From Streptomyces sp. NBC_00490 (lineage in GTDB: Bacteria > Actinomycetota > Actinomycetes > Streptomycetales > Streptomycetaceae), in assembly GCF_036013645.1 (NCBI RefSeq), contig NZ_CP107869.1, forward strand, positions 9,796,001 to 9,860,000: a DNA stretch of 64,000 nucleotides, read 5' to 3'. Position numbers and translations under genes: made by a program. The notes below the pieces were generated by a model. It was not told where the DNA came from. It worked only from the letters and a program-made list of their open reading frames with translations, and ran no database searches. Below are positions 22,045-60,020 of the stretch, piece after piece. The first letter of the stretch is position 1. The number at the start of each line of letters is the position of its first letter.

Positions 22045-22162
22045 GCGAGGGACGATAACACCCGCACCCCCTATGTGATCAGGCACTTTTATGTCAGATC
22101 GGAAGCCTGGGCCGTCGGATGGAGTGCAGCGGGTAAGCGGGCTCGAGGCGAGATCGGCTCAT

Positions 22163-23549
22163 CGGGTCTGTCCTTCGTGGATACCCCGGCCTTCAGGCCG
22201 GGGAGGAAATGAAGCTCCTGCGGAGCAGGGCAGGGAAAGCCGGTTGGCCGCCGCGGCGGACCGGGGTCCACCGCCCCCCGGACGACACCCGCTGCCCATA
22301 CGGAAGTTGATAGAGTGTGAGACGTGACGCGGCAGGTCAAGCGGGCGTTCAAGTACCGCTTTTATCCCACCGGCGTGCAGGCGGCTGAGTTGTCGCGCAC
22401 GTTCGGCTGTGTCCGCCTCGTCTACAACAAGGCCTTGGAGGAGCGCACCCGGGCCTGGTACGGCGAGCAGCGCCGCATCTCCTACGTGCAGTCCTCGGCC
22501 GCGCTGACGCAGTGGAAGAAGACCGAGGAACTGGCCTTCCTGGCGGAGGTGTCCTCGGTTCCGTTGCAGCAGGCGCTGCGCCATTTGCAGACGGCGTTCG
22601 GGAACTTCTTCGCCCAGCGTGCGAAGTACCCGCGCTACAAGTCCCGTAAGAAGTCCCGCGCGTCGGCCGAGTACACGCGTAGCGCCTTCACCTGGCGCGA
22701 CGGGCGCCTGACGCTGGCGAAGATGGCCGGCCCTTTGGACATCCGCTGGTCGCGCCCGCTGCCCGAGGGGACGGAGCCGAGCACGGTGACGGTGTCCCGT
22801 GACGCGGCGGGTCGCTGGTTCGTGTCCCTGCTGTGCGAGGACACCATCGCCCCGGCCCCCGCCACCACGGCGGCCGTCGGCCTGGACGCCGGGATCACCT
22901 CCCTGGTGACCCTGTCCACCGGGGAAAAGGTCGCCAACCCGAGGCATGAGAGGCGGGATCGAACACGGCTGGCCCGTGCGCAGCGGGAGTTGTCGCGCAA
23001 GGCGAAGGGCTCGGCGAACCGGGAGAAGGCCCGCCGCAAGGTCGCCCGCGTGCATGCGCGGATCGCCGACCGGCGCCGCGACGTCCTGCACAAGCTATCG
23101 ACTCGACTCGTCCGCGAGAACCAAACGGTCGTGATCGAGGACCTGAGCGTGCGCAACCTGCTGAAGAACGGCACGCTCGCACGCGCCATCTCGGACGCGG
23201 CCTGGACGGACCTGCGTTCCATGCTGGAGTACAAGTGCGCCTGGTACGGGCGCGAGCTCGTCGTGATCGACCGATGGTTCCCCAGCAGCAAGCTGTGCGG
23301 GAACTGCGGCACGGTCGCGGCGAAGATGCCGCTGAACGTCCGCGAATGGACGTGCGCCTGCGGCGTCGTGCATGACCGTGACGTGAACGCGGCACGTAAC
23401 ATCCTGGCCGCCGGGCTGGCGGCATCTGCCTGTGGAGACGGTGTAAGACCTCAACGGGAGTCCTCCCGGACGGGGCAGTCGTCGGTGAAACAGGAACCCC
23501 AGCGGGCGACCGCTGGAATCCCCCGCCTTTAGGCGGGGGAGGAAGTCAA
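22163..23549 (+). mobile_element. IS200/IS605-group element, tnpB only (IS1341 type), copy 1
   Basis: A 1387-base element preceded by TCAT. The left end carries hairpin CCCCGGCC-TTCA-GGCCGGGG and the right end CCCCCGCC-TTTA-GGCGGGGG followed by AGGAAGTCAA. Copy 2 at 55686 has identical length, the same ends and the same preceding TCAT, which fixes the boundaries. There is no tnpA transposase and no target duplication, as expected for this group. Mobilisation would need TnpA in trans. Confidence 0.85.
22324..23532 (+). CDS. tnpB: TnpB RNA-guided nuclease, copy 1
   Basis: 402 residues. The RuvC triad appears intact: D188 in VGLDAGI, E272 in VIEDLSVRN and D353 in HDRDVNAARN. The four-Cys zinc finger is C325-x2-C328...C344-x-C346, and the N-terminus KRAFKYRFYPTGVQ is the family signature. 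TnpB cleaves DNA next to a target-adjacent motif, guided by an RNA from the element's right end, which helps retain the element. The start is GTG. The stop codon TAG lies inside the loop of the right-end hairpin. About 96% identical to copy 2 by eye. Confidence 0.93.
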   Translation: MTRQVKRAFKYRFYPTGVQAAELSRTFGCVRLVYNKALEERTRAWYGEQRRISYVQSSAALTQWKKTEELAFLAEVSSVPLQQALRHLQTAFGNFFAQRAKYPRYKSRKKSRASAEYTRSAFTWRDGRLTLAKMAGPLDIRWSRPLPEGTEPSTVTVSRDAAGRWFVSLLCEDTIAPAPATTAAVGLDAGITSLVTLSTGEKVANPRHERRDRTRLARAQRELSRKAKGSANREKARRKVARVHARIADRRRDVLHKLSTRLVRENQTVVIEDLSVRNLLKNGTLARAISDAAWTDLRSMLEYKCAWYGRELVVIDRWFPSSKLCGNCGTVAAKMPLNVREWTCACGVVHDRDVNAARNILAAGLAASACGDGVRPQRESSRTGQSSVKQEPQRATAGIPRL

Positions 23550-49768: not shown

Positions 49769-50197
49769 CTAGCCAGCCGAACTGACCAAGGTCTCGAAAC
49801 CTGAGCTATCGCAGTAGGACACTGCACGACCCTCAGCCCCGATGTCGCCGCCGACCGCGTTGACGGTGTCATCGAGGATGTCGGTGCCACCGTGTTCCAG
49901 GCCTGCCCGGTCAAGCCTTTTCGAGGCCTCGATGACCGCATGCCCTGCCGATTCGGTGTTATCGAACTCGGGCGACTGGACACTCTGTCCGTCACCGGCA
50001 TCGGCGTCTGGCTCGCCGGTTGTTGTGGCGTGCGCCGCGTCCTGCCAGGACCCCAGCTTGGTGCAGTAATCCCGTTGCCGCTCCTTGGCCTGCGCTGGAT
50101 CGTCCGACGAACAACTGCTCATCAGGACAGCGGCAACGACAACGGCCGCTGCTCGCCTGACTGCTCGTGTAATCCCACCGCTGTGCTGCAAGGACAT
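49769..50197 (-). CDS. putative lipoprotein (142 aa)
   Basis: 142 residues. A basic N-region, the hydrophobic stretch AVVVAAVLMSSCSSDDPAQA and a lipobox LMSSC place the lipidated Cys at residue 29. The mature part is small and helical (YCTKLGSWQDAAHATTTGEP, AGHAVIEASKRLDRAGLEHG) with two Cys that could pair. GGGGAGGG precedes the ATG. It resembles orphan Streptomyces lipoproteins; function unknown. Confidence 0.8.
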   Translation of the reverse strand: MSLQHSGGITRAVRRAAAVVVAAVLMSSCSSDDPAQAKERQRDYCTKLGSWQDAAHATTTGEPDADAGDGQSVQSPEFDNTESAGHAVIEASKRLDRAGLEHGGTDILDDTVNAVGGDIGAEGRAVSYCDSSGFETLVSSAG

Positions 50198-50269
50198 GCC
50201 CTCCCCGAAGCTTCCGCCACAGAGTATGGATCACGAAGGTGTCGCCTTGCGCAGATCTCCGCGCATCAT

Positions 50270-50700
50270 CAGCAACGGATCGGCGAGGAGCTGAGCACAC
50301 GACCACCCCGGCGAGGCAAGGTGCCTGGGCACCGAGGCGGTTCTCCACAGGACCTCGCCCTCCTCGATGACCTCACCCTCTGGCAGAACATGTTCATCGG
50401 CCGGCAAGCCCGCCGCCGAGCGGCCCCGCTGACCCTGCCGGCCAAGTGGGAGACGGCAGGGCGCGCCGACAAGCCGACAAGAGGGCCAGCCGACTCAGTG
50501 GCAGCGTTCCCAACGCGAGGCGCGCGGTGCGCTCGATATCCGGTGGCCATGGCCCGGGCCCTCGCGCGGGGCTCCGGAACTCGTCAGCACGGAGGTCGGG
50601 GAGGTCATCCTCGGCCTGCGTACCGAGCAGCGCTCCCACTGCCAATCAGCCACCGCTTCGACCGAGGAACTCGCCCCCCTGGTCATCGGCGTCAAGCGCG
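50270..50700 (+). pseudogene. sugar ABC-transporter ATPase relic
   Basis: Scrambled frames give SPQDLALLDDLTLWQNMFIG and VAMARALARGS, then EVGEVILGLRTEQRSH, which match the Q-loop, signature-following and Walker B-following parts of ribose/xylose-type ATPases (HQDLALFDDLTLWQNLFIGRE...AIARALARGS...EVxxxIxGLRxxGxS). Several frameshifts and missing Walker motifs make it non-functional. It seems part of a lost sugar-utilisation locus. Confidence 0.6.
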
Positions 50701-50750
50701 CCGAGCGGTGACCGACGGGCCAGCCGATACCCGTACGCACGCAAGGAGTT

Positions 50751-50865
50751 CTGTGAGCATCCTGCCTCCCACCCCCACCAAGCCCGTGGTGGTCCTGCGC
50801 CCCGCCCCACAGTGCACGGACCGTATCTTCACCTCCGCCGCCCTGGAGATGCTGTGTTCCTGTAC
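50751..50865 (+). pseudogene. N-terminal fragment, possible hydroxyacid dehydrogenase
   Basis: The GTG-started frame MSILPPTPTKPVVVLRPAPQ followed by CTDRIFTSAALEML resembles the start of Streptomyces D-2-hydroxyacid dehydrogenases, then turns into unrelated sequence. It directly follows the ABC ATPase relic, consistent with a decayed sugar locus. Identification is tentative. Confidence 0.4.
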
Positions 50866-50954
50866 GCGAGGTTGCGGTCGGGCCTCGAGTGGAAGCCAGT
50901 GGTTCCGGCACGCTAGACTTGATCACGAGCTGGTGGCCGCAACTCGGGCCAACC

Positions 50955-51066
50955 GGTGTTGCGTTGGTGGTCCAAGGAAAGACGCCCCGCTTCCTGCGGG
51001 GAGATGCAGGTGCAAGGCCTGCCCGGCGCTCGAGTGTGGGGCCCGTCCGCAAGCGCGGACGGGCCC
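50955..51066 (+). ncRNA. structured RNA-like segment, possible cobalamin-type riboswitch relic
   Basis: Successive foldable elements: GCGT...ACGC (50962-50986), CCCCG-CTTCCTG-CGGGG (50986-51002), GCAGG-TGCAAGG-CCTGC (51006-51022), then the terminator at 51039. The string GGGGAGATGCAGGTGCAAGG recalls the GGTGxAAxxCC box of cobalamin riboswitches, but the expected CCCGCxACTG is absent and no B12 gene follows. It is probably a decayed or variant regulatory RNA. Confidence 0.35.
51039..51066 (+). terminator. 12-bp terminator-like hairpin
   Basis: GGGCCCGTCCGC, loop AAGC, GCGGACGGGCCC, followed by TGCGGCTTTCTC with a short T-run. It fits a rho-independent terminator or attenuator directly after the structured segment. 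The following 270 bases to 51337 contain no recognisable gene. Confidence 0.7.
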
Positions 51067-51337
51067 TGCGGCTTTCTCGGCTCACGGCCCGGGGCCAGGC
51101 CCGGCCCTGTAGGGATGTCGCCGACGCTGTGAGGCACTACATCCCCGGCACCAGCGAGGCACTGCACGCACGCCGACTTTTGTTCCCGGACCCGTACGGC
51201 TCAGGCTTTGGCCACGCTTGAACCGGCCGGGAGGCAGCCCAACGGCAGACCGGTGACAGGCTGTTCACACCCGGGCGGCTCGCTGGCCGCGTGCGGCGGC
51301 CGCGCGCAAGGCGTAGATCTCCAGGGAGCGCCAGCGG

Positions 51338-52029
51338 TCAGGAAGAGCGATGGGCCGTCACCAGAAGGGTGGCGGCGCAACGAGGCCCAGCGGCCGGCGA
51401 GGGCAGGAGGTCCACGTCGATGCCGGCGAACCCGGCCTCGCCCAGGAGCTTCACCCACACATGTTGCTGAAGCACCCAGCGACGCATCGTGGTCTCCGTC
51501 CCCTCGGGGGTCCGCGCCGGGATGTCGGCAGCCACGACGTCAGGCTGCGCGGGCAGGCCGCTTAGACAGTGCGCCAGGGTGGAGAACACCAAACGGCCAC
51601 CCGGGCGCAGAGCAGCTGCGGTTGCTGGCAGCAGCGAACGCGGGTCGGTGAAGTCGACGGCGCCGAAAAGACGCTGTACAGCACGTCGTAGGTGTCAGGA
51701 TGCGCTGTCAGATGACGTACGGCGTCGGCTGAGGCAATGCGCAGCCGCGGTGCGAGGTGGCCGAACAGCGTGGCAGGCCTGTCGTACTGGGCGGGTGAGC
51801 CGTCGACGGCGACGACGCCGGCGGGGAGGTGGTGAACCGCCAGATGGGCGGCGTGCCGGGCAGATCCGGCCCCCAGGTCGCCGACGATGCGGCCCGTCAG
51901 ATGGCCGAGGGCCTCCGAGCCGGGACCGCCGTCTTGACTGCAGGTCCAGTGGAAGGTTTGCGGGACGGCGCGATCGCGTTCGGCGCGGACGCGACCGTAG
52001 TGGTGCGAGAGATCTGCGGTACTCGTCAC
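51338..52029 (-). pseudogene. frameshifted class I SAM methyltransferase
   Basis: GTG 52029 starts VTSTADLSHHYGRVRAERDR, then RIVGDLGAGSARHAAHLAV (motif I with GAGSA), VVAVDGSPAQYDRP and YDVLYSVFSA. One frame then becomes nonsense and the protein continues in another from about 51600: FSTLAHCLSGLPAQPDVVAA, MRRWVLQQHVWVKLLGEAGF. One single-base deletion near 51655 explains it. It could also be a sequencing error; otherwise complete. Confidence 0.75.
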
Positions 52030-52427
52030 TGCCTCATCCTGGTGGCGACGGCCGGCCGGGTGGCAGCTCCCGGGGAATCTCACCTCGAAGGACACTTGAC
52101 GGCCAGGCCGCCCGCCAAGGAGGACCCGATGCACCGCCGCCCGCTGCGCACCGCCACAGCGACCGCCGGGCCTGTGGTCCTGGTGCTCGGCGTGGACCAG
52201 ACACCAGCCGCCGCTCCGCCACCGACCGGTAGGGTCGCTGGACGCCCGCATGGCCACTGTCCATGACCCTGTACGACCACGGCACGTTGCCACTCTGGAG
52301 GTCATGCCGACCTCCCCGCCGCGGAGGAAAGCTGTCCGCGCCATCCTGGTGGACGGCGACGATCGCGTCCCTGTCGGCCGGCTCGTCTCCGCAGGCAGCC
52401 CTTGGGCCACACCACCAGGAGGAACCA

Positions 52428-52817
52428 GTGTCATATCCGCAAGTGCTCACCCCTGAGGAGAAGCTCGCCGAGGCGAAGAAGCTGTTGAGCCTCCCGCGTA
52501 TCGTCGTGATCTGCGGTTCCACCCGCTTCATGACCGAGATGACCGAGGCCGATCTGCGGGAGACCAAAGCCGGAAAGATTGTCGTCAAGCCGGGCTGTGA
52601 CATGAAGTCGCCGCACGCACTCTGGTCCGGTCCTGTCGAGGCCGAGGCGCTGAAGGTTCGACTCGACGATCTGCACCGGGCGAAGATCCGGCTTGCTGAT
52701 GAGGTGCTCGTAGTCGGCGGCTACATCGGAGACAGCACCCGAGCCGAAATCGCCTACGCCCGGTCGCTGGGCAAGCCCGTGCGGTTCACGCACCCCGAAG
52801 TCGACCCTGACGCCTGA
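52428..52817 (+). CDS. nucleoside deoxyribosyltransferase-like/DUF4406-type protein
   Basis: 129 residues. A Rossmann-like start (RIVVICGSTRFMTEMTEADL) with the conserved CGSTRF, followed by GCDMKSPHALW and LADEVLVVGGYIGDSTRAEI, then AYARSLGKPVRF. The GSTRF and DEVLVV...ST..EI..A pattern resembles nucleoside 2-deoxyribosyltransferase-fold proteins common in phages and plasmids. The GTG has a perfect AGGAGG site. It may act on nucleotides; unproven. Confidence 0.75.
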   Translation: MSYPQVLTPEEKLAEAKKLLSLPRIVVICGSTRFMTEMTEADLRETKAGKIVVKPGCDMKSPHALWSGPVEAEALKVRLDDLHRAKIRLADEVLVVGGYIGDSTRAEIAYARSLGKPVRFTHPEVDPDA

Positions 52818-53604
52818 CCGCCTGCTGCTACCACGAGAACCACGACCGGCAGCCCGCCGCCTGAGGGTCTCGCGGTGGCTTCGGCCGTCGACCACCTCCA
52901 GGCATCCTTTGGAATCGATCATTCAGGGACACTGCCGCGTGTTGGCTGCTGTGAAGGCGGTGCAACACCCGGAGCTGGTGCGGCCGATATTTCACCGCCG
53001 CAGCCCCTCTCGTCGGGTCTCGTCGGGCTTCCCAGTGCACCACCGCCTTGGCGGTGCTGATCGCGGGTTCGCGCCGCACACATCTGCGCAGTGAGTGGCA
53101 GGCGATCCTGGCGAGCAGCGATGCCCCGGACGCAGGGCTGACCCCAAGGCAGCGTCACCGCCTGGCCCGCGGATTTCTCCTCGCCGCCCTGCTCATCCGT
53201 CGGCCTGACCTGTCGGGATGGCTGGGCCCCTAGCGACTGGGTCATCGCATCTCCGTCACGCTCCAACAGCCTTGTCGCCACCGGCGTTGGCGCGCATGTT
53301 CTCTACATTCAGCACGCCGATGGCCTTCACGCCCTGCTCACCGAGGGCCGGGGCTGGTGTGCGGGATCGCCATGCGCCTGTTCCTCAACTGGCTTCGTCG
53401 CGTGCGCGGCATCGAACTCGCGGCTGCGCGCAGTGACTCCGAGGGTCCTTAAAGCACTCATCCTCGCCCGCGCAGTGGGCCGCAGAGCGCGGCCGACGCG
53501 CGAGGCCTGCAGTCACTCCGCCCCAGAAGCCGAAAGAATGTTCCATTTGTAAGGGGTGGCGGGTTAAGGTCACGTTCTGCTGATCTTGTATGGAGGTGCC
53601 CCGG
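52818..53604. other. 787-base gap without recognisable gene
   Basis: Multiple short open frames on both strands, none with a domain or coherent codon use. The last 60 bases before the LexA-like gene are AT-rich (GAATGTTCCATTTGTAAG) and probably hold its promoter. I see no clear actinobacterial SOS box of the TCGAAC-N4-GTTCGA type. Confidence 0.4.
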
Positions 53605-54282
53605 ATGGATGCCACCAGCCACGCTCGTCGAGGCCGCCCTCCGGGCCCGCGGACCGCCGCGGGCGAGCTGACGGAGCGCCAGGCCGCGATCGTCCGCTAC
53701 ATCACGGAGTTCGTCGGCCGGCAGGGCTATCCGCCGTCGATGCGGGAAATCGGCGCAGCCGTGGATCTCGCCAGCACCTCCTCGGTCGCCCACCAACTGA
53801 TGGCGCTCGAGAGCAAGGGCGTTCTCTACCGCGACCCGCACCGTCCTCGCGCCTACCGGGTCAGGCCCTCATGGGCACCCGACTTGAACAACCGCGGTGA
53901 GGCGCCCGTCGACGTACCGCTCGTCGGCCGGATCGCCGCCGGCGCGCCGCTTCTCGCCGAGGAGATGGTCGAGGACGTGTACTCCTTGCCCCGCCAAGTC
54001 GTGGGCGACGGGGACCTGTTCGCCCTGACGGTGTCCGGGGACTCCATGATCGACGCGGCGATCTGCGACGGCGACATCGTGACCGTCAGGCGCCAGGACA
54101 GCGCCGACCACGGCGACATCGTCGCCGCGCTGCTGGACGACGAAGCAACCGTCAAGGTGCTGCGGCGGAGAGAAGAGGACGGGAGGGTGTGGCTCATGCC
54201 CCGCAATCCCGCCTATGCGCCGATCCCGGGCGACCAGGCGCAGATCCTCGGCAAGGTCGTCGGCGTCCTGCGCCTGCTCTGA
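53605..54282 (+). CDS. lexA: LexA-type repressor (paralogue)
   Basis: 225 residues, full LexA architecture. The N-terminal winged helix is [20 protein letters not shown] followed by [20 protein letters not shown]; the cleavage site is Ala-Gly in [12 protein letters not shown]; the self-cleavage Ser is in [12 protein letters not shown] and Lys in EATVKVLRR. It would repress SOS genes until RecA-stimulated autocleavage. ATG 53605 is preferred over 53590 because GGAGG lies eight bases before it. No lexA partner such as nrdR is adjacent, and an accessory location suggests a second copy. Confidence 0.92.
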
Positions 54283-54928
54283 TCACCCACACAAGACGGC
54301 GGCTGCCCAGCAGCGGACCGACAGCCTGGCCGAACGCAGCCCAGCCAACGGTGTCTGACGGGATACCTGTCAACGCCCGTGATGTCAGGAAGACGTCAGG
54401 CGGAAAAGGTGGCCAGCCGGTCCCAGAGTACCCGCCAGTCCATCGCCGGGCTGATGGTCCGGTCTGGCCGCGCCGAGTTCCAGGGCCGGCTCTTCCTTGC
54501 AACCAGGTCGCCGCGCGGAAATTCCGGTGGAACTGTTGTGGCACGTTCTGACCCGGCCACTGCGGCGCGGGGCGGGTGGCAGCCCAGTTCGTTCCAGCGA
54601 TGTCCGCTCGCTGCGAGTGCTGTGCCACACACCATGGATCCGTTCGCGCGGGCGTTTTCCCGCTCCGTCGCACCCGAGCCGAACTCCGCCAGGCCGAACC
54701 CGACGGCACCGCGCCTCACGACGTTCTGGCCCTGAAGGGTCAGCAGCGCCGCGAAGCGGAAGTCCCGGGCTTCGAAGGCGAGATCGGACACGGCCAGCAT
54801 CAACACGTCGATGATGAACACCGCAGTGGACGTCATGGCACAGGTCCAGGTCGCGGCTACCGCCGGAGAAGATGCCCCTCACCGACCTATGATGCGATCC
54901 CGGCCCTCCACCTCCCTGGAGAAGACGC
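54283..54928. other. 646-base gap without recognisable gene
   Basis: An open minus-strand frame of 146 codons (54396-54836) has no recognised domain and poor coding character. No IS ends, palindromes or RNA were identified. Confidence 0.4.
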
Positions 54929-55465
54929 ATGACGAATGCGAGCACCGGCAAGGTGGTCGTGAACAGGGTGATGTCCCTCGACGGGTTCATCGCCGGTCCC
55001 GGCCACACGATGGACTGGATCTTCGAGCACATGACGTCGGCGACGTTCCCGGAAGTCATGGCGGCCACGGGCGCCATGCTCATCGGCCGGGGCACGTACG
55101 AGGTCGGCAAGCGCATGTCCGACGAGAACACCGGCTACGACGGCGGGGCGCAGTTCGTCCTCACCCACCGCCCGCCCGACGAGCCGGACCCCAACGTCAC
55201 CTTCCTCACCTGCGACGTCCAGGAAGCCGTGGCCACGGCACGCCGCGCCGCCGGCGACAAGAACCTGGAGATCCTCGGCGCCGACGTGGCCGCCCAGTGC
55301 CTGCAACGCGGCCTCGTCGACGAGATCCTGGTGTACGTGCTGCCGGTGCTGTTGGGCGACGGCGTCCGCTTCGCGCCGCCAGGCCTCGACCGGATCGACC
55401 TGGAACCGTTCAGCAACGTCCAGTCGGGCGGGGTCACCATGCTGCGCTTCCACGTGCGCAAATAG
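54929..55465 (+). CDS. dihydrofolate reductase-family protein (RibD C-terminal-like)
   Basis: 178 residues. VNRVMSLDGFIAGPGHTMDW is the diagnostic N-terminus of the stand-alone RibD-C/YwjB family; MLIGRGTYEVGKRMSDE and LEILGADVAAQCLQRGLVDE with ILVYVLPVLLGDGVRF complete the DHFR-like fold with its NADPH-binding loop. These are NADPH-dependent reductases of unknown substrates in actinomycetes. GGAG lies upstream of the ATG. Solitary gene, 220 bases before IS copy 2. Confidence 0.9.
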   Translation: MTNASTGKVVVNRVMSLDGFIAGPGHTMDWIFEHMTSATFPEVMAATGAMLIGRGTYEVGKRMSDENTGYDGGAQFVLTHRPPDEPDPNVTFLTCDVQEAVATARRAAGDKNLEILGADVAAQCLQRGLVDEILVYVLPVLLGDGVRFAPPGLDRIDLEPFSNVQSGGVTMLRFHVRK

Positions 55466-55685
55466 GCGCGGTCGCAACTACTGGCCTGCTGTCATGGCCC
55501 TCATCCCGTGGGGCAAGTCGCCCCCAGCGCGGCGCCCGAGGCCGCTCGGATCGCGGCGCCGTGGTCGTGGCGGAAGTGGGCCAAACTCGAAGGACGAAGG
55601 CCGTGGCGTCGTTACCCGGACTGCGTTTCTGCTTGGCGGGGCTCAGCATGTAGTCAGCGGACCGGGTCACTACGATTCTGATCAT

Positions 55686-57072
55686 CGGGTCTGTCCTTCG
55701 TGGATACCCCGGCCTTCAGGCCGGGGAGGAATCGAAGCTCTGGCGGAGCAGGGCAGGGGAAGCCGGTTCGCCGCCCAGGCGGACCGGCGTGCGCCGTCTG
55801 CCGGCCGACTCCCTTTGTCCACACGGAAATTGATACGCTGTGAGGTGTGGCGGAGCAGGTCAAGCGGGCGTTCAAGTACCGCTTTTACCCCACCGGCGTG
55901 CAGGCGGCTGAGTTGTCGCGCACGTTCGGCTGTGTCCGCCTCGTCTACAACAAGGCCTTGGAGGAGCGCACGCGGGCCTGGTACGGCGAGCAGCGCCGCA
56001 TCTCCTACGTGCAGTCCTCCGCCGCGTTGACGCAGTGGAAGAAGACCGAGGAACTCGCTTTTCTGGCGGAGGTGTCCTCGGTTCCGTTGCAGCAGGCGCT
56101 GCGCCATTTGCAGACGGCGTTCGGGAACTTCTTCGCCAAGCGTGCGAAGTACCCGCGCTACAAGTCCCGTAAGAAGTCGCGGGCGTCGGCCGAGTACACG
56201 CGTAGTGCCTTCACCTGGCGCGACGGACAGCTGACCTTGGCGAAGATGGCCGGCCCTTTGGACATCCGCTGGTCGCGCCCCCTGCCCGAGGGGACGGAGC
56301 CGAGCACGGTGACGGTGTCCCGAGACGCGGCGGGTCGCTGGTTCGTGTCCCTGCTGTGCCAGGACACCATCGCCCCGGCCCCCGCCACCACGAACGCGGT
56401 GGGCCTGGACGCCGGGATCACCTCCCTGGTGACCCTGTCCACCGGCGAGAAGGTCGCCAATCCCCGGCACGAACGGCGTGACCGTGCCCGCCTGGCGAAG
56501 GCGCAGCGGGAGTTGTCGCGCAAGGCGAAGGGTTCGGCGAACCGGGAGAAGGCCCGCCGTAAGGTGGCCCGGGTGCATGCGCGGATCGCCGACCGGCGCC
56601 GCGATGTTCTGCACAAGCTGTCGACTCGACTCGTCCGCGAGAATCAAACGGTCGTGATCGAGGACCTGAGCGTGCGCAACCTGCTGAAGAACGGCACGCT
56701 CGCACGCGCCATCAGTGATGCGGCCTGGACGGACCTGCGCTCCCTGCTGGAGTACAAGTGCGCCTGGTACGGGCGTGAACTTCTGGTGATCGACCGATTC
56801 TTTCCCAGCAGCAAGCTGTGTGGGAACTGCGGGACGGTCGCGGCGAAGATGCCGCTGAACGTCCGCGTGTGGACGTGCGTGTGCGGCGCGGTGCATGACC
56901 GCGACGTGAATGCGGCACGCAACATTTTGGCCGCCGGGCTGGCGGCGTCTGCCTGTGGAGACGGTGTAAGACCTCAACGGGAGTCCTCCCGGACGGGGCG
57001 GTCGTCGGTGAAGCAGGAACCCCAGCGGGCGACCGCTGGAATCCCCCGCCTTTAGGCGGGGGAGGAAGTCAA
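55686..57072 (+). mobile_element. IS200/IS605-group element, tnpB only (IS1341 type), copy 2
   Basis: 1387 bases, the same length as copy 1. The left end CGGGTCTG with hairpin CCCCGGCC-TTCA-GGCCGGGG follows TCAT. The right end is CCCCCGCC-TTTA-GGCGGGGG then AGGAAGTCAA. The leader between the left hairpin and tnpB differs clearly from copy 1, so this is an independent insertion of a related element. Removing it joins TCAT to GTGGAGAG and recreates the ATG of an SMI1/KNR4 gene. Confidence 0.87.
55847..57055 (+). CDS. tnpB: TnpB RNA-guided nuclease, copy 2
   Basis: 402 residues; the RuvC Asp (VGLDAGI), Glu (VIEDLSVRN) and Asp (HDRDVNAARN) and four zinc-finger Cys are all intact. It differs from copy 1 at about 16 positions, e.g. 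VREWTCACGVV versus VRVWTCVCGAV. The GTG start is exactly 161 bases inside the element, as in copy 1. The stop lies in the right-end hairpin loop. Its frame continues into the interrupted SMI1 gene, separated only by the TAG stop. Confidence 0.93.
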   Translation: MAEQVKRAFKYRFYPTGVQAAELSRTFGCVRLVYNKALEERTRAWYGEQRRISYVQSSAALTQWKKTEELAFLAEVSSVPLQQALRHLQTAFGNFFAKRAKYPRYKSRKKSRASAEYTRSAFTWRDGQLTLAKMAGPLDIRWSRPLPEGTEPSTVTVSRDAAGRWFVSLLCQDTIAPAPATTNAVGLDAGITSLVTLSTGEKVANPRHERRDRARLAKAQRELSRKAKGSANREKARRKVARVHARIADRRRDVLHKLSTRLVRENQTVVIEDLSVRNLLKNGTLARAISDAAWTDLRSLLEYKCAWYGRELLVIDRFFPSSKLCGNCGTVAAKMPLNVRVWTCVCGAVHDRDVNAARNILAAGLAASACGDGVRPQRESSRTGRSSVKQEPQRATAGIPRL

Positions 57073-57092
57073 GTGGAGAGAGACGGCCCTGC
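56923..57092 (+). ncRNA. predicted right-end guide RNA of TnpB copy 2
   Basis: By analogy with copy 1, the scaffold should end at GTCAA (57072) and the guide would begin GTGGAGAGAGACGGCCCTGC, which is the 5' end of the interrupted SMI1 gene. Extent is inferred; the hairpin is seen directly. Confidence 0.45.
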
Positions 57093-57508
57093 AGGCCTTT
57101 CCCGATGTCGGCTTCCGGGAGCCGGTTCATGACGCCGAACTCGCCGCGGCCGAGCGACGGTTGGGCCGTGAGCTCCCCGCAGAGCTGCGGCACATGCTCC
57201 TGGAGAGCAACGGGGTGATCGGACCAACTTCGGTCGACACCGTCTGGGCACTCGACCAGATCGTCGAGCGGAACCGTCTCTTCTGGTCCGACCCGTCCTT
57301 TGCCCAGTTGTATATGCCGTTTGATGCCCTGTTGTTCTTCGGAGACAACGGGGGTGGTGATCATTTCGCCTTCGTGCAGAGACCGCAGCGTCCCGACATC
57401 TTCGTGTGGGAGCACGCGAGCGACAGCAGACGGTGGGTGGCCGGCGACCTGCGGGACTACCTCATGCGCTCGCTTCGCGAAGGTGGCGACGACTGGTATC
57501 AGCTGTAG
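57074..57508 (+). pseudogene. SMI1/KNR4-family gene, start codon split by IS insertion
   Basis: From TGG 57074 the protein reads WRETALQAFPDVGFREPVHD, then AELAAAERRLGRELPAELRH and MLLESNGVIGPTSVDTVW, the typical SMI1/KNR4 start, ending LREGGDDWYQL. The native ATG is missing: joining the IS flanks gives tcATG-TGG-AGA. No in-frame ATG or GTG remains before residue about 40. SMI1/KNR4 proteins are often immunity proteins of toxin systems. The rest of the frame is intact, so the element alone caused the inactivation. Confidence 0.85.
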
Positions 57509-57514
57509 TCGCCG

Positions 57515-57980
57515 GGATCGACTCGTGCTCTTCGCGGTGTCGCGCAGGTGCTGTATCTGGTCCGGCGCGAGACGGCGGACGTCCCAGATGAGGCCGGTCA
57601 CGTCGACGACGGCCTGCGACGGGGACGCCGTGCGGTCCTGCAGCTTGAGGCCGCTCAGTGTGGCCAGGTCGTCGGCGCGTATGCCTAGCACGATGGCGTA
57701 GTCGACCAGGAGATCGCGTGTCAGCTCTATCCGGCCGTGGCCGACCGGCGTGGTGCGGGAGGCCGCGCTGCGGGCCCTCGCGGATGGCGTGGATCCGTGC
57801 CCGCACTGCCGACCCGACTCGCACATCGACCGATGATGAGGCGCTCTTTCGAGGCTTGTGGGCTGCCTTCTTCGCTGCTGGAGCCATTTTGCCTGTATCC
57901 GCTGCTTCCTCCTTCGCCCCGATCCCGCCCGAGGTGGCCGTCTGGTCGAGTTCTGCGGCCATCTCGTTGACCGCATTGCT
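57515..57980 (-). pseudogene. helix-turn-helix protein relic
   Basis: A minus-strand frame carries LTRDLLVDYAIVLGIRADDL and VVDVTGLIWDVRRLAPDQIQ followed by HLRDTAKS, the C-terminal half of a Streptomyces XRE-like family. The upstream part MAPAAKKAAHKPRKSAS and VRARIHAIREG is in another frame, and the intervening helix-turn-helix is missing. A deletion and a frameshift are the simplest explanation. Confidence 0.55.
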
Positions 57981-58288
57981 CAGGCAGGGGGGGCGGGAGG
58001 GCTGGCAGGGCGACATAGAAGGACTTTGCTTCAGTCGGAGATGGGCCGGTACTCCTCGGCACGCCTGCACGCCGATAGCCTCTCGGCACCCCTGCGAGGT
58101 GGTCGCAGTTCCCTTTCTGGCTCATGCGCCTCGTATCCCATGGTGGTCGCGTCGACTATCGGAACTGATGCAGATAAACACGCATGAAATGACCGTTTTA
58201 CGTGACTCTTTCTGGCAAAGTCGCTGCGTGTTCAGGGGTGCGTCAGGTGAGGCGCCCCAAGCGTCAATTGACCAGGGAAATGCCATGA

Positions 58289-59569
58289 GTGACGCAGGAG
58301 GCTTCTCCGGCCGGAACGCAGACCGGAGTACGGATCCCGGTGAGCCTGATGGGCCCGGTCGGCACCCTGCTCACCGTCGTCGTCACCGTCGTCGTCTTCT
58401 TCTTCGGCAAGCCCTCCACCGCAGGAGGCAACGCAGCCGCCTGCTTGCCGGTCTTGAGGCAGTGCCCTGTCCCGGCCCTGCCCCCGTGGAGCGGGTCAAC
58501 CCTGGTCGGCAACACGTGGCGCGGCACCACACGACACCCGCCCATCGGCCCCGGGGAAGGGGGCGGTATCGCGGCCATCCCGCCCGCATGGACCGGCCAC
58601 GTTGCGCATCCCACCGCCGAGACCAGGCGGGGGAGCCACCATGCCCCACCCCCGCAGGCCGCGGCGACGGCCCGGCAGGACGTCTCACCCCTCCTGCGAT
58701 CGTGCCTGACGTTCTCGGCTGGGCCTGTGGCACAGCCTGAGCAGCGCGCCGATGGCGCGGGACCGTTCACCACCCGGCTCACCTGGCGCCCGCCCGGCGG
58801 CGGCACCGCCGTGTGGGAGTCGCGGCTGGCCCGCCGGCGCGGAGTACTGGCTCTGCGTCCCCACGGTGCGGCGGCCGCTCGGCACATCCGTGCGGACGCC
58901 GTTGCCATCGCCCGTCTGAACAGACTCAACGTCATCGCGGCGATCGCTTTCGTCATCGGCGGGGCCCTTTTCGCCGCCGGTGCGGCCGTCGCCCAGTTCG
59001 GCTCTGGCGATGCCACCGAGTGCGCCTCGATCTACTTCGCGGGCGGCCTCTTCTTCAGTACCGGCGGGTACGTGTCACTGCTCCAGGTGATCAATGCGCC
59101 CCGCCACGAGGGCGGCGGCGAAGGCCGGCTGGTCACCGGCGGCTGGCGGTGGTGGAGTTACGAGCCGATGCGGGTGGACTGGCTGAGCACGTTCGTCCTG
59201 TTCGCGGGCACACTCGTCTTCGCCGTCGACTTGCTGGATTCCTTCCTGCAGGGTCTGAACGCCCATCAGGTCAACCGGCTGATCTGGGTGCCCGATGTGA
59301 TCGGTTGCGCCCTGTTCCTGGTCTCCGGCCACTTGGGCTTCGTTGAGGTCTGCCATGGTCGGCCCTGTTTGCGCCCGCGCAGCCTCGGCTGGTGGATCGT
59401 CGCCGTGAATCAGTTCGGCTCCGGCCTCTTCATGATTTCCGCGCTCGCTGCCTACACTCGCCCCGCCACCGACAGCCTCGTCAACGCCGACATCGCCAAC
59501 TGGGGCACCCTGACCGGCGCCCTGTGTTTCTCCCTCGCAGGGCTCCTCCAACTCGGCGAACACCCGTAG
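58289..59569 (+). CDS. multi-helix membrane protein, uncertain N-terminus
   Basis: The C-terminal 270 residues are clearly a membrane domain with six helices (VIAAIAFVIGGALFAAGAAV, LSTFVLFAGTLVFAVDLL, VIGCALFLVSGHLGFVEVCH, LGWWIVAVNQFGSGLFMISA). They are preceded by RLTWRPPGGGTAVWESRLAR. Residues 1-140 from the GTG at 58289 are of low complexity apart from one helix (TLLTVVVTVVVFFF) and may not be part of the gene; GTG 58727 is a plausible alternative start. Function unknown. Confidence 0.65.
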   Translation: MTQEASPAGTQTGVRIPVSLMGPVGTLLTVVVTVVVFFFGKPSTAGGNAAACLPVLRQCPVPALPPWSGSTLVGNTWRGTTRHPPIGPGEGGGIAAIPPAWTGHVAHPTAETRRGSHHAPPPQAAATARQDVSPLLRSCLTFSAGPVAQPEQRADGAGPFTTRLTWRPPGGGTAVWESRLARRRGVLALRPHGAAAARHIRADAVAIARLNRLNVIAAIAFVIGGALFAAGAAVAQFGSGDATECASIYFAGGLFFSTGGYVSLLQVINAPRHEGGGEGRLVTGGWRWWSYEPMRVDWLSTFVLFAGTLVFAVDLLDSFLQGLNAHQVNRLIWVPDVIGCALFLVSGHLGFVEVCHGRPCLRPRSLGWWIVAVNQFGSGLFMISALAAYTRPATDSLVNADIANWGTLTGALCFSLAGLLQLGEHP

Positions 59570-59643
59570 CTGGTGCTGTTGCGCGTCGGCGAGACGCCGG
59601 TGTGAGCAGTCCGTACGCCGACAGCTGTGCCGGTTGCTGTGGC

Positions 59644-59721
59644 GACATGACGAGGCCGCCCGCCGGTTTCCCCCGTGGCGGGCGGCTCGTGGTCTTGAGC
59701 GTCCAGAGATCGAAGTCGGCG
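59644..59721 (-). repeat. repeated hairpin element, copy B
   Basis: The inverted counterpart of the element at 33135. Read on the minus strand it has the same TTCGATCTCTGGACGCTCAA lead, then GCCGCCCGCC, a 12-base loop and GGCGGGCGGC with additional CGAG/CTCG pairing. It lies 75 bases after the membrane-protein stop and could act as its terminator. The rest of the gap to 60020 holds no gene. Confidence 0.6.
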
Positions 59722-60020
59722 GCGGTACGGATTCTTTACAGGAGAAGTAACCGCAGCCTGCGCACCTGAACAGGGGCCACCGTAGCGGGGTGGCCCGCGG
59801 GCGGGCATCTGAATTACACCGGAGTGCGAGCTTGAGTTGACCTTCTTCGCTGCGTGTCTGCCCCTGGATGATCGAGACCGTCACGTAGGCGACGCCTGTG
59901 ATCGCCCTCTCTCTGAGCTGAGCGGCAAATGGTTTCGGAACACCGGTGAGGCGAATCCTCGTTCTGCCGTGTTTCCCAACTCGTTCTTCACAGAGCGCAG
60001 CGATCAACCAGGAGTTTCCA

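Follow-up and report, generated by a model that had tools for sequence, protein, structure and literature searches.

A tnpB-only IS200/IS605 element interrupts an SMI1/KNR4 start codon in a Streptomyces genome and, in sampled relatives, usually adjoins the start or the stop/start overlap of an opposite-strand gene

IStrons are chimeras of IS605 elements and group I introns that act by RNA splicing, and TldRs are nuclease-dead TnpB repressors. Closer to the element studied here are those of the IS1341 type, which have only tnpB between their left end (LE) and right end (RE); according to the sections of PMC9956272 consulted, 10 of 18 such elements are 1252-1393 bp long and their TnpBs have 362-489 aa. 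In IS608, the sites TTAC and TCAA go with the guide tetranucleotides AAAG and GAAT, each guide lying 5' of a hairpin (PMC5934647, in part). In ISDra2, the target of TnpA doubles as the target-adjacent motif (TAM) of TnpB, and about 16 nt of the right flank serve as the guide (PMC8612924, in part).

We analysed a stretch of 64,000 nucleotides from Streptomyces sp. NBC_00490 (the window), which holds two copies of a tnpB-only element with the following features:

55686..57072, + strand: tnpB-only IS200/IS605 (IS1341-type) element, copy 2 of the window, its boundaries fixed by 17 copies and empty alleles
22163..23549, + strand: copy 1 of the element, after TCAT at 22159-22162
55682..55685, + strand: TCAT insertion motif, also seen in all 17 copies of the genome and in empty alleles; its last two bases (55684-55685) give the SUKH start codon its A and T
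57069..57072, + strand: TCAA right cleavage motif, whose complement TTGA holds TGA in the ATGA register
55703..55706, + strand: GATA, which by its place 5' of the LE hairpin (compare IS608) is the putative left guide tetranucleotide for TCAT
55707..55726, + strand: LE subterminal hairpin CCCCGGCC-TTCA-GGCCGGGG, from the sequence
57039..57042, + strand: GAAT, right guide tetranucleotide from the sequence and comparison with IS608, with the same letters as there
57043..57062, + strand: RE hairpin, from the sequence, with the TAG of tnpB (57053-57055) at its loop
55694..55698, - strand: AAGGA, outward Shine-Dalgarno-like core in the sequence, 8 nt from the ATG of the reverse-complemented TCAT

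The original prediction was that both tnpB elements follow TCAT and end at GTCAA, and this holds for copies 1 and 2 and for all 17 near-full copies in the same genome, which also contains fragments (L012 was counted after a small LE deletion). Copy 2 ends in GTCAA at 57068-57072, after which the right flank begins at 57073 with GTGGAGAGAG; its boundaries had been claimed exact to the base, and the 17 copies and the empty alleles agree on them. Insertion takes place 3' of the fixed short motif and without target duplication (17/17 own copies, three empty alleles). TCAT was correctly identified as the insertion motif, for which the IS608 guide scheme gives separate support. By sequence, the subterminal hairpins carry matching guide tetranucleotides (GATA for TCAT, GAAT for TCAA), with the pairing rule read from IS608: as we read it, in each of the four guide-site pairs the first and fourth letters of the guide complement the second and fourth of the site.

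The element thus resembles IS608, as far as the source consulted describes it, in its short target motif, in a guide tetranucleotide 5' of each hairpin, in the TCAA right site and in the GAAT right guide, and it differs from both IS608 and ISDra2 in the target TCAT, the left guide GATA and the lack of tnpA, as tnpB takes up most of its length. With IS1341-type elements it shares that only tnpB lies between LE and RE, whereas the part of PMC9956272 consulted reports roughly 1-3 copies in each genome across six species, in contrast to the 17 here. These 17 near-full copies all lie within 0.83 Mb of one end or 0.75 Mb of the other end of the 10.57-Mb contig. A peel-and-paste strand bias was considered and rejected, as the orientations are mixed (7 plus, 10 minus). 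An element of this type would be mobilised in trans by a Y1 TnpA; the same genome has two Y1 transposase frames, both outside the element, and neither was identified as a tnpA with ends matching it. One candidate helper, the tnpA of L029, was rejected because a simple pattern search found no end motif in common with the element. L029 (C1:560071) is an IS200/IS605-like locus with a divergent pair of genes, tnpA and a different tnpB, situated between two copies of the element; GAAC can be read near its hairpin and TCAG upstream, and by the IS608 scheme TCAG could be its own target. Among the shorter derivatives, L028 (C1:10075405-10075640) is a deletion form of about 236 bp with both ends and short internal pieces, resembling a miniature non-autonomous copy, and L026 and L027 (C1:435099 and 447440) are 3' fragments that read CTTCAG for CTTTAG in the RE loop, through which the tnpB stop is absent and the frame would continue.

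The coding part of the element and the RNA that it likely encodes are placed as follows:

55847..57055, + strand: tnpB, 402 codons from GTG, with PF01385, PF07282 and PF12323 and intact RuvC motifs GLDAG / IEDL / DRDVNAA
56927..57072, + strand: likely omegaRNA scaffold, overlapping the 3' end of tnpB and of low nucleotide diversity

The protein matches the TnpB profile NF040570 above its cut-off and NF038281 below its own, and has the RuvC acidic residues, whose roles we assume by analogy, together with an HTH and a TNB domain. The frame is intact, with 403 codons in each of the 17 own copies, and the median pairwise dN/dS is 0.17 (136 pairs). TldRs share the TnpB fold and the guide logic, but membership among them was rejected since the catalytic motifs are not lost: GLDAG, IE and DRD are kept in 17/17 copies, L024 and L025 reading IEH for IED with the E retained. 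Computed on the 17 own copies, third-position diversity is 0.07-0.24 in blocks over codons 1-360 and 0.042 over codons 361-402, and diversity after the stop is 0.012, which is expected if this stretch also encodes an omegaRNA. The 3' end of tnpB is conserved at the nucleotide level in a way that fits an omegaRNA. Rfam gave only sub-threshold matches over window positions 50000-60000, five at E up to 1, and with no group I intron family among these five, membership among the IStrons was rejected. The likeness to IStrons lies in a tnpB element that limits the harm to the invaded gene, although here the repair would be at translation. HgcC, an archaeal RNA, matched below threshold at both element ends (56976-57084 and 55619-55740), perhaps through a shared IS605-type hairpin.

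Copy 2 lies in the start codon of a SUKH (SMI1/KNR4) gene, with these features around the junction:

55671..55676, + strand: TACGAT, likely -10 of the SUKH promoter, 7 nt upstream of the split start codon, with TANNNT in homologues
57073..57088, + strand: predicted 16-nt guide by analogy with the ISDra2 reRNA (source seen in part), equal to the SUKH coding bases after A and T
57074..57508, + strand: start-less SUKH/SMI1-KNR4 frame, codon 2 to stop (PF09346 2e-16, PF14568 9e-14; intact homologue P0001, 96%)

As predicted, joining A55684-T55685 to G57073 restores ATG TGG AGA GAG in the SUKH frame, and the rebuilt empty site exists in nature. Alignment of the joined flanks showed a junction free of the insert in S. 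canus (L079; 92.8% over 765 columns with one gap, the match reaching 87 bases to the left of the junction), S. katrae (L080; 87.5% with 5 gaps, reaching only 10 bases) and the relative G266 (L050; 84% with one gap, reaching 22 bases). The flank further to the left is absent or elsewhere in the empty alleles, and because in S. canus it matches elsewhere in the locus, synteny is not simple. Given left-side matches of 87, 10 and 22 bases with what lies beyond elsewhere or absent, the S. canus allele carries the most weight. Streptomyces sp. NBC_00124 has the best SUKH homologue, which shares 96% identity and begins MWRE.

Homologues were also used to examine the start codon. The protein search matched 70 of 392 genomes, and 30 loci were fetched; from 55 loci, 40 distinct homologues that reached 55% identity were retained, the rest being repeated, below 55% or unmatched from residue 1. 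The check on homologue start codons went in favour of the prediction, with ATG at the split position in 37 of the 40, and in 37 of 40 TANNNT stands 6-8 nt upstream of the start (shuffled upstream sequences: mean 1.2, maximum 5). In S. lividans, 4-9 nt separate the -10 element TAnnnT from the transcription start, and leaderless transcripts make up 17% (PMC8079986, in part). Most likely, judging from the promoter spacing, the SUKH gene is leaderless and its transcript begins at the A of the ATG, and the element would then be inserted two bases after the likely transcription start, removing the start codon. We infer that the element is transcribed from the SUKH promoter in place of SUKH. No similar promoter precedes the other own copies, TANNNT occurring in 0 of 16 within the 40 nt of left flank next to the element. 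At SMI1 the insertion struck the sense strand and was destructive; candidate sense-strand starts besides it number 4 of 107 sites under a looser criterion. A gene resembling lexA (Peptidase_S24 and LexA DNA-binding domains) is found at window positions 53590-54282, 1.4 kb upstream of the element.

If SUKH were instead a live gene read from the downstream TTG at 57161, the element would sit in its leader. That TTG opens the last 115 codons, and a few homologues among the matches listed are only about 126 aa long, but the ATG at the split position and the TANNNT right before it, each in 37/40 homologues, and a Pfam match that begins at residue 17 of 144, ahead of the TTG at residue 30, make this improbable. 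Another reading is that the element adapts the locus, tnpB and SUKH forming one regulated unit through read-through of the TAG or reinitiation. The original prediction had pointed out that tnpB runs in phase into the SMI1 frame with a lone TAG in the loop of the RE hairpin, and this was confirmed: codon 2 of SUKH is at 57074, no stop occurs between the TAG and SUKH, and GGGGGAGGAA stands ahead of the junction. The phase is nevertheless incidental, as a match of one in three and an equal tnpB length of 403 codons in 17/17 copies imply no fusion. The first in-frame ATG, GTG or TTG is the TTG at 57161, and the GTG after RE is out of frame and opens a frame of 19 codons. That RE supplies a GTG start was tried as an idea and rejected, since such a GTG follows 4/17 own copies compared with 4/255 background TCATs, but only 1/28 sites of other genomes. 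Of all the readings that we weighed, the single tnpB-SUKH unit appears the least credible, and we regard the SMI1 site as a destroyed start.

By analogy with ISDra2 (PMC8612924, in part), from whose description we also take the likeness of a guide drawn from the right flank, TCAT would serve as the TAM of TnpB as well. The predicted guide has as its closest match in its own genome the occupied site itself, the sole one below three mismatches, with four others at three; this site is without a TAM because it reads TCAA. The exact target of TCAT and 16 nt is present in 1 of 391 other genomes of the genus (G266) and is also readable in S. katrae, which agrees with the original prediction that the guide would match the start of an SMI1 allele.

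What was overlooked in that prediction, which is supported in part, is the leaderless gene, the incidental phase and the fact that TCAT is the complement of ATGA. We counted a site as a start when an opposite-strand coding frame began exactly at that ATG, and as an overlap when, in addition, the upstream frame ended exactly in the TGA register. Frames were called coding on codon GC pattern and not on annotation (60 codons or more, with a third-position GC of 0.8 or more that exceeded the first position and lay 0.2 over the second). In the first sample of other genomes, opposite-strand starts were found at 44 of 64 sites compared with 298 of 1465 background TCATs (20.3%; p = 6e-16), and ATGA overlaps at 17 of 64 compared with 9 of 1465 (0.6%; p = 9e-19). 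Only two of the 64 were in-frame interior sites. In a second sample, with criteria unchanged, starts were 18/26 (p = 1e-7) and overlaps 9/26 (p = 1e-12), and as the first 43 sites had suggested the rule, these 26 are the cleaner test, although they include new sites from some genomes sampled earlier and all counted sites belong to one genus. The first sample kept 64 of 89 loci (L106-L194), leaving out those with no TCAT or TCAA near the expected place, the duplicate sites L121, L135, L136 and L148, and L149, in which LE did not align; for L174, with two tandem TCATs, the outer one was used. The second kept 26 of 36 loci (L235-L270), the ten dropped including L263, L264 and L265, which have TCAT but GCCAA at RE. 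Among the genomes sampled, the family usually sits at the start or the stop/start overlap of an opposite-strand gene. In the own genome the rule is weak, with starts at 5/17 (p = 0.26; p = 0.055 when interior sites are left out) and overlaps at 1/17 (p = 0.11).

The left proteins include one related pair among the first 44 and three over all 107 sites; one of the three is the amtB|glnB junction, where two species each have an element and the two elements share only 78% identity. When the proteins at ten overlaps were compared with Pfam, 19 of the 20 received a name: shikimate kinase|dehydroquinate synthase, ammonium transporter|PII, nucleotidyltransferase|dehydratase, permease|glycosidase, histidine kinase|response regulator, sigma factor|unnamed, OB-fold|thiolase, ABC|ABC, luciferase-like|luciferase-like and permease|melibiase-like. 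In G213 and G168, two species, the same luciferase-like|luciferase-like junction is occupied (L120, L121, L135), in one of them near both contig ends.

It could be argued that this is an ordinary insertion sequence, with TCAT as the TnpA target, an excess at starts that reflects survivorship or motif bias, since ATGA often occurs at starts when a genome is GC-rich, and an SD-like core that is merely a structural part of LE. Already 12.6% of background TCATs are non-interior starts, and the own genome shows little excess. Yet the sites surpass the measured background about 5-fold for non-interior starts and about 40-fold for overlaps, and the preference for overlaps over simple starts (17/42 vs 9/184; p = 2e-8, all nine background overlaps counted as non-interior) is not produced by motif bias. 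Survival at starts, moreover, would be most easily explained if the displaced ribosome-binding site is replaced.

Pairing with the anti-SD at -6 kcal/mol or better was found in 81/81 LEs when 16 nt were considered, a value that 21% of shuffles reach. Median duplex energies were -9.5 kcal/mol at 64 sites of other genomes, -6.2 in own copies (also -6.2 in window copy 2) and -4.0 in shuffled sequences. The core lies 3-8 nt from the ATG at 106 of 107 sites and 11 nt from it at one (L174); some cores are weak (AAAGA, AAGGG), and the LE of the own genome has a weaker AAGGAC. The core is at the same time the outer arm of a covarying LE stem, TTYG/CGAA in 63/76 and TCCG/CGGA in 27/28 (3/107 unclassified), so it may be kept for transposition, and this covariation also speaks for an ordinary insertion sequence. 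Start and non-start sites could not be told apart by SD strength within other genomes (p = 0.078). Over all 81 they could (p = 0.004), but that set includes the own copies, weaker and mostly off starts. Translational and structural constraints on the core may act together. Given the overlap excess, we consider the ordinary insertion sequence an unlikely explanation, though a more serious one than either alternative for SUKH, and prefer the reading in which the ends of the element would keep the invaded genes translatable.

At the right end, TTGA restores TGA in register (NNA TGA to NNT TGA), and the change of the last codon is synonymous at 23 of 27 overlap sites. The aroK|aroB junction of G267 illustrates this. 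The occupied allele reads GAAGC|TTGA...element...CCACGGAGGAATCTTG|ATGAGTGAG, so that the end of aroK goes from GCA TGA to GCT TGA, both Ala-stop, and GGAGG stands ahead of the native aroB ATG. When loci from 19 of 40 relatives were compared, the upstream gene was ungapped up to ATGA and without an insert in 10. In the occupied genome aroB has a single DNA match (E up to 1e-20), a threshold that a diverged second gene could escape. Of the 19 relatives, 5 carry a perfect match to TCAT and the guide of this element, and 9 a match with no more than one mismatch. At amtB|glnB the empty overlap is ungapped in 9/19 relatives, with a less conserved guide (two mismatches at best).

The consulted part of PMC9956272 makes no mention of ATGA-junction positions with an outward SD, and none of the matches listed from the open-licence literature, by titles and beginnings of abstracts, describes an IS200/IS605 element that inserts at ATGA overlaps and brings a ribosome-binding site with it. 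Among those matches, placement at ATGA junctions with a stop and an SD borne by the ends appears to be new for tnpB-only IS200/IS605 elements.

We find it quite probable, taken as a whole, that this is a TCAT-targeted tnpB element that was destructive in SMI1 and whose ends in relatives rebuild a stop and an SD at an opposite-strand ATGA. The element goes in 3' of TCAT; about 16 nt of its right flank would act as guide and TCAT as TAM, both as in known TnpB systems; TnpB would then cut empty alleles, leading to the element being copied back, and the occupied site, reading TCAA, would be safe. In the window, the motif is on the sense strand at the start of the probably leaderless SUKH gene, so that the start codon is lost and the promoter points into tnpB. 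At most sampled sites of relatives it is on the antisense strand of a gene start, placing the element exactly 5' of ATGA, where the left end offers a Shine-Dalgarno sequence at a working distance from the native ATG and the right end a TTGA that ends the coupled upstream gene in the same register. As both neighbours would be kept translatable, the family would accumulate at ATGA junctions.

With less assurance, we lean towards the view that a common Streptomyces TnpB lineage is adapted to translational silence, is thereby able to occupy conserved operon junctions, including those of biosynthetic genes like aroB, and has a guide that homes to the same junction in other strains and species. If true, this would be a homing strategy comparable to those of introns and inteins, acting at translation, and an insertion sequence adjoining a start codon need not signal an inactivated gene. 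The TCAT target motif would be explained by gene architecture, which predicts where such elements sit, and tnpB-only elements would persist by choosing junctions common to relatives and repairing two reading frames.
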